This document shows, piece after piece, positions 23,088 through 26,107 of a DNA stretch of 58,779 bases; positions within the stretch are counted from its first letter, which is position 1; each line of letters opens with the position of its first letter. The stretch is from Rhizobiaceae bacterium (GTDB lineage Bacteria > Pseudomonadota > Alphaproteobacteria > Rhizobiales > Rhizobiaceae), in contig JAIXTO010000063.1 of NCBI GenBank assembly GCA_027483885.1, positions 1 through 58,779 on the forward strand, read 5' to 3'. Below the pieces are notes generated by a model. The model was given only the letters and a program-made list of their open reading frames with translations, was not told where the DNA came from and did not search any database. The position numbers and the translations under genes are program-made.

Positions 23088-24284
23088 TCAGGCCGTTTTC
23101 TTCAACTGTTCGCGGCTGAGCTTTTCGGCCGCACGCTCGATGCGCGCAATGCCCTCGCGGGCTTCTTCCGCCGTCACCACCAGCGGCGGCAGCAGACGAA
23201 TGACGTTATCACCGGCGGGAACACCCAACAGATGTTCCTCGCGCATGGCCAGTACCAGTTCGCCGGCGGGCACGCGCGCCTTGACACCGAGCATCAGGCC
23301 TTCGCCCCGGATTTCCTCGATCACATCGGGGAAACGGTCCTTCAGCGAGGCAAGGCCCTGGCGGAAGACCAGCGCCACATCGCGCACATTGTCGAGGAAA
23401 CCATCGGCCAGCACCACGTCGAGCACGGCATTGCCGACAGACATGGCGAGCGGATTGCCACCATAGGTCGTGCCGTGAATACCGGGCTTCATGCCGGATG
23501 CGGCCTCGGCGGTCGCAAGGCAGGCGCCGAAGGGAAAGCCGCCGCCGATGCCCTTGGCAACGGCCATGATATCGGGCGTGATGCCGGTTGCCTCATAGGC
23601 AAAGAACTTGCCGGTACGGCCGACACCAGTCTGCACCTCGTCGAACATCAGCAAAATGCCGTTGTCGTCGCAGATCTGGCGCAGTTCGCGCAGGAATTCC
23701 TTCGAGACAACGCGAATGCCACCTTCGCCCTGGATCGGCTCGATCAACAGCGCTGCGGTGTTTTCGGTGATCGCTGCCTTCAGCGCGTCCATGTCGTTGA
23801 ACGGCACCTGATCGAAACCTTGCGCCTTCGGCCCAAAGCCTTCCATGTATTTTTCCTGGCCGCCGGCGGCAATCGTCGCGATCGTGCGGCCATGGAAGGC
23901 GCCTTCGAAGGTGATGATGTGGAATTTTTCCGGGTGGCCCTTGGAGTAATGGTAACGACGGGCCGTCTTGATGGCACATTCCAGCGCTTCCGCACCCGAG
24001 TTGGTGAAGAACACCTTGTCGGCAAAGGTCGCCTCGGTCAGGCGGCGGGCAAGCCGCTCCTGATCGGGGATCTCGTAGAGGTTGGACAGGTGCCAGACCT
24101 TGTCGGCCTGGTCCTTCAGCGCCTCGACCAGATGCGGATTGGAATGGCCGCAGGAGGTGACGGCAACGCCTGCGCCGAAATCGAGATATCGCTCGCCCGT
24201 TTCCGTCACGAGCCAGACGCCCTCGCCGCGCACGAAACGCAGCGGAGCCCGTGCAAAGGTGTCGAAAAGTGCGGCTTCAGCCAT
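23088..24284 (-). CDS. argD: Acetylornithine aminotransferase
   Basis: A 398-residue class III PLP aminotransferase of arginine (and possibly lysine) synthesis. It shows [29 protein letters not shown], the [11 protein letters not shown] and [15 protein letters not shown] blocks, and the PLP-Lys in [18 protein letters not shown] lies 10 bases before the ATG at 24284. It is the first gene of argD-argF. The 427-base region upstream is shared with the divergent gcrA gene. Confidence 0.95.
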
Positions 24285-24488
24285 GGCGACATCACTCCTT
24301 GGGCAACGATAATCCCTTGTGGCGGCACGGCCGCCGGAATTCAAACCAGAAACTAAAAATGCCGCCTGAAGCGGCGGCTGGCGCACTATCTGCATTTCAG
24401 GATCAACTGTCAACAAATCGCTTGAATTTCAGGGGATTTCCGTTGCGTGAGGCAGGCTTGCGCGAAGCTTTTGCGCTGTGACAAAAAA

Positions 24489-24679
24489 GACTCGCCTTAA
24501 AAGCAAGTTGGGGAAAACCCACAAATCGATTCGCCGCGATTCCGCCGACTCTTGTCAGGGAGTCCCGGGGTCGATAGGTTAAAGATCAATTACTAGACTG
24601 CATGCGGCGGAACTAGTCACCAAGCACATAGATATGGTATGTCCGGCTGGAAATCTTCCCGCCGGAGGGTGAGCGATTC
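24489..24679. promoter_or_regulatory. Cluster of six GANTC (CcrM) sites upstream of gcrA
   Basis: GANTC occurs at 24489-24493, 24528-24532, 24538-24542, 24547-24551, 24560-24564 and 24675-24679. Five lie within 76 bases. CcrM methylates GANTC in alphaproteobacteria, and GcrA is known to act with sigma-70 at promoters carrying methylated GANTC. The sites therefore could time or autoregulate gcrA. The count is direct; the role is inference. Confidence 0.7.
24579..24593. promoter_or_regulatory. CtrA-like site (TTAA-N7-TTAC) upstream of gcrA
   Basis: TTAA at 24579-24582 and TTAC at 24590-24593 are separated by seven bases. The CtrA consensus is TTAA-N7-TTAA, so one base differs. In Caulobacter CtrA and GcrA control each other; the site lies about 120 bases before the gcrA start. 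Confidence 0.45.
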
Positions 24680-24711
24680 TGTCCGCACAGGCCCCAAGGC
24701 GGAGAGACGGC

Positions 24712-25263
24712 ATGAACTGGACGGACGAGCGCGTCGAGAGACTAAAGCGGCTTTGGGCCGAAGGCCTGAGCGCAAGCCAGATCGCAACACAGCTGGGCGG
24801 CGTCAGCCGCAACGCCGTGATCGGCAAGGTACACCGCCTCAACCTGCCGGGCCGGGTCAAGGCCGGCGGCACGCAGGCAACGGCCCGCACCGCGCCCAAG
24901 CGCACCACCTCTGCTCCGCGCGCACCGAACTTTGCGGCCCGCACCACAACCAATCCTACCCTGACCACACCCCATACGGTCGGTGTTGCAGCGGTGGCAC
25001 GGGAAGTTGAGACCGTACAGCCGACGGAATTCCGCGCGCCGAGCAATGTCGTGGTCCCGATGTCGCGCAAGCTTTCGCTGACGGATCTGACGGAACGCAC
25101 CTGCAAGTGGCCGATGGGCGATCCCCTGAAGGACGACTTCCACTTCTGCGGTTCGGATTCTGCTGATACCTCGCCCTACTGCAAATATCACGCTCGCCTC
25201 GCCTACCAGCCGGTGAACGAGCGTCGTAAGGCCGCGAACATCTCGGCTGCCGCCCGCGCCTGA
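24712..25263 (+). CDS. gcrA: GcrA cell cycle regulator
   Basis: A 183-residue GcrA protein, the alphaproteobacterial cell-cycle regulator that binds sigma-70 and promoters with methylated GANTC. The N-terminal HTH block is typical: MNWTDERVERLKRLWAEGLS, then QLGGVSRNAVIGKVHRLNLPGR. A Pro/Ala/Thr-rich linker (about residues 50-105) leads to the sigma-binding C-terminal domain with its conserved Cys and His residues (RTCKWPMGDP, FHFCG, PYCKYH). Position beside the arg and pho operons matches other Rhizobiaceae as I recall. The region upstream carries six GANTC sites. A strong terminator follows. Confidence 0.95.
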   Translation: MNWTDERVERLKRLWAEGLSASQIATQLGGVSRNAVIGKVHRLNLPGRVKAGGTQATARTAPKRTTSAPRAPNFAARTTTNPTLTTPHTVGVAAVAREVETVQPTEFRAPSNVVVPMSRKLSLTDLTERTCKWPMGDPLKDDFHFCGSDSADTSPYCKYHARLAYQPVNERRKAANISAAARA

Positions 25264-25296
25264 TATCTTTTCGAGCGCTTGCCGCTCGGCACTCTG

Positions 25297-25323
25297 AAAA
25301 CGGGCCTCGCGCCCGTTTTTTTT
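25297..25323. terminator. Intrinsic terminator after gcrA
   Basis: AAAACGGGC (25297-25305) pairs with GCCCGTTTT (25311-25319) around a 5-base loop and runs into T's to 25323. The A-run on the other side means it may also stop phoB transcription from the opposite strand. Confidence 0.85.
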
Positions 25324-25423
25324 GTGCCTGGAGACACCCTCAAAAAAGCCGACAAAAAGAACGCCCGGAAGCAGGAGCCGCCGGGCGTCAAAACCGTGTT
25401 TCATCAGAAGTGACGAACGCGCG

Positions 25424-26107
25424 TCAGGCTTCCATCGAATATCCGGCGCCGCGCACGGTGCGGATCACATCCTGCATGTTGGAAAAGTTGAGTGCCTTGC
25501 GCAGGCGCCCGACATGCACGTCGACTGTGCGTTCATCCACGTAGATATCATGGCCCCAGACACCATCGAGCAGCTGCGAGCGCGAATAGACGCGGCCCGG
25601 CGAGGCCATCAGAAATTCCAGCAGGCGGAATTCCGTCGGCCCAAGCCGCACTTCGCGGCTTTTGCGGTGAACGCGGTGTGTCTCGCGGTCCAGCTCGATA
25701 TCACCGCAGCGCAGAACGCTGGAGAGAACCTCCGGGCGGGCACGCCGCAGCATGGCCTTTACCCGCGCCATCAGTTCCGGCGTCGAGAACGGTTTGACGA
25801 CGTAATCGTCGGCACCGGTGGCAAGGCCCCGCACCCGTTCGCTTTCCTCACCGCGTGCCGTCAGCATGATGATCGGCAGCCGTTCGGTTTCCGGACGCAT
25901 GCGTAAGCGCCGGCAAAGCTCGATGCCCGATACGCCCGGCAGCATCCAGTCGAGGATCAGAAGATCCGGCAACCGTTCCTGGAGGCGGATCTCCGCCTCG
26001 TCTCCGCGCAGGATCGTCTCGACCTCGTAGCCTTCGGCCTCGAGATTATAGCGCAGGAGGACGCTGAGAGCTTCCTCGTCCTCCACAACCGCAATTTTGG
26101 GCAGCAT
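25424..26107 (-). CDS. phoB: Phosphate regulon response regulator PhoB
   Basis: A 227-residue OmpR-family response regulator. The receiver domain has EDE near residue 10, phosphoacceptor Asp in LLILDWMLPG (about 54), the Thr in MLTARG and Lys in VVKPFS. The winged-helix DNA-binding domain ends with VWGHDIYVDERTVDVHVGRLRK, the recognition helix typical of PhoB. It binds Pho boxes under phosphate starvation. It is the last gene of the phoR-pstSCAB-phoU-phoB cluster, 26 bases after phoU. This distance from its sensor phoR (first gene) is the usual rhizobial order. Confidence 0.96.
   Translation of the reverse strand: MLPKIAVVEDEEALSVLLRYNLEAEGYEVETILRGDEAEIRLQERLPDLLILDWMLPGVSGIELCRRLRMRPETERLPIIMLTARGEESERVRGLATGADDYVVKPFSTPELMARVKAMLRRARPEVLSSVLRCGDIELDRETHRVHRKSREVRLGPTEFRLLEFLMASPGRVYSRSQLLDGVWGHDIYVDERTVDVHVGRLRKALNFSNMQDVIRTVRGAGYSMEA

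Follow-up and report, generated by a model that had tools for sequence, protein, structure and literature searches.

Analysis of the 58,779-nt stretch of Rhizobiaceae DNA considered here (the window) revealed a dense array of GANTC sites directly upstream of gcrA, as in the gcrA promoter P_G of A. tumefaciens, with two of the sites bracketing the predicted -35 element. The window probably contains a promoter homologous to P_G, at which methyl groups placed beside the -35 element by CcrM would hinder sigma-70 until replication leaves the sites hemimethylated. The bracket is strongly conserved among close relatives and, in part, over the order.

The gcrA locus and its promoter

The gcrA product matches the Pfam family GcrA with E 6.6e-57; against the NCBIfam model sig70cofacGcrA it has E 7.6e-45, but 153 bits versus a cut-off of 280. 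The nearest GcrA proteins, among the best 80 of 582 relatives from named genomes, come from Rhizobium and Neorhizobium (65-73% identity). The divergent neighbour argD was identified by NCBIfam PRK01278 (E 3e-200) and TIGR00707 argD (E 2.2e-137), and phoB lies downstream of gcrA in convergent orientation. The genome also encodes a CcrM candidate, a 376-aa protein with a RAMA domain that matches the NCBIfam CcrM model with E 2.8e-189, yet with 628 bits against the cut-off of 830 set for a Caulobacter-named model. The features of the region are as follows.

23088-24284, minus strand: argD, divergent neighbour
24489-24493, no strand: GANTC site 1 (GACTC), near -100 relative to the predicted start; lowest conservation of the six
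24502-24518, minus strand: conserved element AGCAAGTTGGGGAAAAC (minus strand GTTTTCCCCAACTTGCT), containing the DnaA W-box consensus TCCCCA
24528-24532, no strand: GANTC site 2 (GATTC), distal
24538-24542, no strand: GANTC site 3 (GATTC), distal
24547-24551, no strand: GANTC site 4 (GACTC), abutting the -35 element
24552-24557, plus strand: predicted -35 element TTGTCA (seen as CTTGTC from 24551), placed with reference to the start published for S. meliloti
24560-24564, no strand: GANTC site 5 (GAGTC), within the -35/-10 spacer
24575-24580, plus strand: predicted -10 element TAGGTT, 17 b after TTGTCA, a weak match
24578-24594: two overlapping putative CtrA boxes, minus-strand TAA-N7-TTAAC (24592-24578) and plus-strand TAA-N7-TTACT (24580-24594)
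24589, plus strand: predicted transcription start (+/-1), carried over from S. meliloti gcrA
24602-24614, plus strand: putative EcpR1 sRNA target ATGCGGCGGAACT, from its position in the leader
24675-24679, no strand: GANTC site 6 (GATTC), inside the transcribed leader
24712-25263, plus strand: gcrA, 183 aa

On the argD side, a promoter scan found a promoter-like TTGACA-N17-GATAGT at 24413-24385, outside the array. Assignment of the array to argD was ruled out, since this site is more than 70 b distant.

The gcrA start of S. meliloti is located at -122 from the AUG (PMC4414408). It was placed at 24589 through two Ensifer loci of like layout (L016 and L018), not via the promoter of S. meliloti itself. 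Changes per column were counted by parsimony on the tree of the gcrA coding sequence. Five of the six columns of the -35 element show 0 changes, and CTTGYCA is present in 80 of 81 upstream regions; in the -10 element, the T, A, T and T columns show 0-2 changes and the two G columns 7 and 14. A simple promoter scan of the window did not have this pair (TTGTCA/TAGGTT) among its listed promoters.

Two further regulatory inputs known from S. meliloti appear to have counterparts here. A CtrA box on the minus strand with a weaker one on the plus strand has been reported for its gcrA (PMC3616915), and in the window the minus strand at 24592-24578 reads TAATTGATCTTTAAC, which has the form TAA-N7-TTAAC; the CtrA-box-like pattern GTTAA-N7-TTA is kept in just 31 of the 81 upstream regions. 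In S. meliloti, the binding place of the sRNA EcpR1 lies 13 nt past the gcrA start (PMC4414408). The leader block 24600-24621 (mean 4.2 changes per column) fits the place of this target, and for that reason a mini-ORF, ATGCGGCGGAACTAG, at 24602 was set aside. The published start, CtrA boxes and EcpR1 target of S. meliloti gcrA all match letters in the window (PMC4414408, PMC3616915); 'GANTC' is absent from the main text of PMC4414408, whose subject is not methylation. A search for known RNA families over 24000-25800 gave four Rfam matches up to E 1, all below the gathering threshold and none in the upstream region.

Density of the GANTC array

A sequence-only reading of this DNA had claimed six GANTC sites upstream of gcrA, five of them within 76 b. 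The letters bear this out: all six occur at the positions listed above, sites 1-5 span 76 bases, and the whole set falls within 223 b of the gcrA ORF, similar to A. tumefaciens, in which the 250 b preceding gcrA contain six sites (PMC11514494). The chance rate assumed in that reading, one site per 256-280 b, is not the rate of the genome itself, which has 238 GANTC in 333,677 b of 20 sampled stretches (0.71 per kb). The window contains 41 sites versus 267 expected from dinucleotide shuffles, a roughly 6.5-fold depletion relative to dinucleotide composition. The sampled stretches, and likewise the remainder of the window, contain at most two sites per 76 b. A Poisson model at the sampled rate gives about 0.0009 clusters this dense in a genome of 5.5 Mb; five sites in 76 b are therefore far from chance, and chance clustering was ruled out as the cause of the array. 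Because the genome avoids GANTC, the observation is stronger than first claimed. Over-representation of GANTC upstream of gcrA, relative to the chromosome, has also been described in A. tumefaciens (PMC11514494).

The array is not the sole dense GANTC cluster in the genome. An oriC-like region beside hemE, on another contig (L162:2552-2709 on C134), has four sites in 30 b, at 2552, 2560, 2569 and 2577, followed by sites at 2692 and 2705, and carries the DnaA-box-like sequences TTATCCCCA and TGTGGATAA. A further contig (C90, L150:1-20000) has one GANTC in 20 kb, far under the genome rate; this stretch could be recent or plasmid-like DNA.

Conservation among close relatives and two classes of sites

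The claim depended on the sites being shared by close relatives, and comparison revealed that they are. For this comparison, the best 80 named gcrA loci were taken from 582 confirmed relatives, so that the set leans to close relatives. The core GANTC-CTTG-GANTC (GACTC-CTTG...GAGTC, the pair 24547/24560) surrounds the -35 element in 75 of these loci, with a pair spacing of 13 b in 74 and of 14 b in one (L039); all 76 brackets, that of the window among them, have C and G as central bases. Upstream of the core, GANTC is found at 17-20 b (equivalent to site 2) in 68 of 76, at 8-10 b (site 3) in 50 of 76, and at 55-61 b (site 1) in 24 of 76. The exact 10/9/13 spacing of four sites occurs in 43 of the 80 named loci, or 44 with the window. 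Of 81 upstream regions, 78 have the leader site, and 80 have T at its central position. On average, the upstream regions contain 4.95 GANTC per 300 b, whereas the sequences flanking these loci have 0.91 per kb. In five loci (L055, L058, L061, L074 and L080) and in several genomes of the wider order, two GANTC 6-7 b apart stand in place of the single leader site.

The parsimony counts show which letters are kept. The GA.TC letters of sites 2-6 have a mean of 4.1 changes per column, against 13-29 at single letters between sites 2, 3 and 4, a mean of 19.1 in the intergenic background 24423-24501, and 20.7 at third codon positions. Site 1, with 12-15 changes per column, resembles the background. 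Site 5 shows 0-2 changes at all five columns, the central one included, and site 6 shows 0-2 per column. The central base changed 11 times in site 2 and 10 times in site 3, and once each in sites 4, 5 and 6. Since it drifts in the former and is near-fixed in the latter, the sites fall, as judged from these patterns, into two classes: distal sites, in which apparently only GANTC matters, and promoter and leader sites, in which the central base would matter too. The fixed central bases of the bracketing pair suggest a base-specific reading beyond methylation.

Distribution of the bracket in the order and its losses

GcrA was found in 119 of 120 genomes of the order; one of them (G043) has only 132 b upstream and was dropped, leaving 118 usable. 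The bracketed -35 element is present in 42 of the 118 genomes, representing 19 of 47 families. The full bracket is missing in the other 76, and 14 genomes are without any GANTC in 300 b. Either the full bracket or a spacer GANTC after a TTG element occurs in 58 of 119 genomes, where mononucleotide shuffles predict 1.38 for the spacer pattern and 0.04 for the bracket. The commonest distance between neighbouring sites in the order is 13 (44 cases, next 12). The pair of central bases in the 42 brackets is C/G in 26, C/T in nine, C/C in three, A/T in two, and G/T and C/A in one each. The full bracket has no occurrence in 392,116 b of background from the own genome or in 480,931 b of flanks; the looser pair GANTC-N7-9-GANTC occurs 0 times in the former and 22 times in the latter. 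Outside the order, 76 genomes of the class had a match, of which the 28 best-scoring loci were used, with the own genome and one order member set aside; none of the 28 has the bracket, and they average 1.04 GANTC per 300 b.

Five of the 80 close loci lost the bracket: both sites in L028 and L063, and the upstream site in L052, L065 and L076. CTTGYCA is intact in all five. CcrM was present in eight of eight tested genomes lacking the bracket, which ruled out site loss as a consequence of CcrM loss. Since the losses leave CTTGYCA and CcrM in place, the bracketing sites are separable from promoter function and are not kept merely through the presence of CcrM, and the methylation switch is dispensable in some lineages. 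The bracket is also found on Mesorhizobium chromosomes (e.g., the complete chromosomes with L059 and L071), and for this reason it probably did not arise to serve a second chromosomal origin.

A W-box-like element upstream of the array core

The most conserved stretch outside the promoter is AGCAAGTTGGGGAAAAC at 24502-24518, with a mean of 1.2 changes per column. Its part TTGGGGAAAA is present in 81 of 81 upstream regions, at 43 or 44 b from the -35 element in 78 of the 80 that were measured. A search for DnaA boxes upstream of gcrA gave the W-box-like TTTTCCCCA alone. The TCCCCA that it contains is the W-box consensus for Caulobacter DnaA (PMC4285127) and is common in its own right, with 76 occurrences in the 333,677-b sample of the own genome; GTTTTCCCCAAC has none in the same sample. 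TCCCCAACT is common to the element and the oriC-like region beside hemE. In Caulobacter, gcrA is under DnaA control (PMC8203912), and here DnaA may bind TTTTCCCCAA as a further cell-cycle input.

Probable methylation control of the gcrA promoter

The closest published system is P_G of A. tumefaciens, a homologous promoter with a like number of GANTC sites. Its reporter activity is lower when methylated, both in A. tumefaciens and in E. coli (active versus inactive CcrM), and overexpression of ccrM decreases gcrA mRNA in A. tumefaciens (PMC11514494). The authors suggest that full methylation limits recruitment of the sigma factor, whereas hemimethylation activates the promoter; they leave undecided whether A. 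tumefaciens GcrA is methylation-sensitive (PMC11514494). As repression of P_G by methylation has already been reported, the array in the window is the homologue of a published case. Methylation control of the gcrA promoter can thus be regarded as supported, because the effect was measured at the homologous promoter, also in E. coli without GcrA. For P_G, the start could not be predicted, and its conservation and promoter anatomy are not described in the passages concerned; section 25 of PMC11514494 describes no mutation of a single gcrA-promoter GANTC. By contrast, the sites are placed here against the -35 and -10 elements, the CtrA box and the leader, and traced through the order.

These data suggest the following sequence of events, which we consider probable as a whole. 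CcrM would methylate the array, and sites 4 and 5 would then put four N6-methyl groups into the major groove, flanking the -35 contact of sigma-70 on either side and weakening initiation at the gcrA promoter when methylation is full. Passage of the replication fork would leave the sites hemimethylated, repression would ease, and GcrA would be made early in S phase, until late CcrM shuts the promoter again. The upstream sites, at one-turn spacing, and the leader site may strengthen or tune the repression. Further cell-cycle inputs would come from CtrA, through the box that covers the start, and probably from DnaA at TTTTCCCCAA, and EcpR1 would act on the mRNA. We infer the causal role of the bracket, the hemimethylation step, the role of DnaA and a like behaviour in the source organism. 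Such a direct effect on sigma-70 accounts for the repression seen in E. coli, for the alignment of the two best-kept sites with the -35 element, and for their lack of fit to YGAKTCK, the Caulobacter GcrA-activation motif scored here. It alone leaves the family-fixed central bases and the leader site unexplained, and a protein that reads the sites, such as GcrA, may act in addition.

The sequence-only reading had proposed methylation-timed autoregulation by GcrA. Methylation control agrees with the results at the homologous A. tumefaciens promoter; binding of GcrA and sigma-70 to the methylated array, with activation or repression of the own promoter in step with replication, appears unlikely. 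Caulobacter GcrA does read methylated GANTC (PMC3667746, PMC8116508), three of the six window sites (24489, 24528 and 24675) fit YGAKTCK, and the conservation of the central bases in sites 4-6 points to a protein reader. However, the methylation effect is detectable in E. coli, which has neither GcrA nor other Alphaproteobacterial regulators, and its sign at the A. tumefaciens promoter is repression (PMC11514494). Moreover, each of the bracketing sites fits YGAKTCK in 0 of 76 cases and the leader site in just 2 of 81, and the phrase 'gcrA promoter' is absent from PMC3667746 and PMC7987155.

It is considerably less probable that GACTC-N8-GAGTC is an operator or an extended -35 element read as bases, with methylation incidental. 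The invariant C and G of the 76 brackets, the inverted-repeat form of the pair, and the better conservation of both its sites relative to the distal ones would be expected of such an element. However, the central bases vary among the 42 brackets of the wider order, and GANTC is therefore what is kept; the distal sites, too, retain GANTC while their central bases and the intervening letters drift. In addition, an effect of methylation was measured at the homologous promoter, and repression in A. tumefaciens is lost on removal of CcrM with the sequence intact (PMC11514494). Least probable of all is a role of the array in replication or for CcrM itself (a methylation sink or oriC-like sequestration, with any gcrA effect a by-product), since the core keeps register with the -35 and -10 elements rather than with itself and TTGGGGAAAA keeps its distance to the -35 element, even though the other dense cluster encountered is the oriC-like region by hemE, with which the gcrA upstream element shares TCCCCAACT.

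Comparison with other methylation-controlled promoters

In Dam-controlled promoters with GATC in the -35 or -10 elements, such as pIN of IS10, methylation directly reduces use by RNA polymerase, and hemimethylation opens a window of expression. The direct effect on sigma-70 preferred here resembles these promoters in the location of methylation within core-promoter elements, and differs in the site (GATC), the enzyme (Dam) and the bacteria concerned. The ctrA P1 promoter of Caulobacter, which likewise belongs to a cell-cycle master regulator and is likewise, as we propose for gcrA, held by methylation, is off when fully methylated and is released by hemimethylation after fork passage (PMC8116508). 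It has one upstream GANTC and depends on GcrA (PMC8116508), whereas in the window an array brackets the -35 element in front of gcrA itself, and the methylation effect at the homologue is also seen without GcrA. Brilli et al. counted the GANTC sites in front of cell-cycle genes and refrained from drawing conclusions on control (PMC2877005); another passage of that paper has CcrM controlling gcrA in that cluster. In Brevundimonas, no extended motif is preferred (PMC7987155).

Relative to the literature searched, what is new here is the placement of the sites against the published start, the presence of the bracket in 42 of the order's 118 usable genomes, its losses despite CcrM, the two site classes, and the rigidly spaced TTTTCCCCAA element. 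On a broader reading, which we put forward tentatively and hold at somewhat less than even confidence, a methylation sensor intrinsic to sigma-70 would operate across Rhizobiales, formed by a -35 element between two CcrM sites exactly 13 b apart and acting without a reader protein. It could have originated stepwise, from a widespread spacer site to the upstream site and then to the distal sites in Rhizobiaceae, and, given the Mesorhizobium bracket, probably not for second replication origins, a purpose that the model for A. tumefaciens might imply. With a DnaA W-box at a fixed distance and a CtrA box over the start, this one promoter would then integrate signals from DnaA, the passing fork and CtrA.

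The role usually given to GcrA is to read CcrM methylation; in the present case, gcrA would itself be under a methylation switch. The constraint on the array is strong over the whole family and, partly, over the order. The fixed -35 geometry makes GcrA-free repression in E. coli a simple question for defined templates, and the natural losses of sites in lineages that keep CcrM provide a comparative test.
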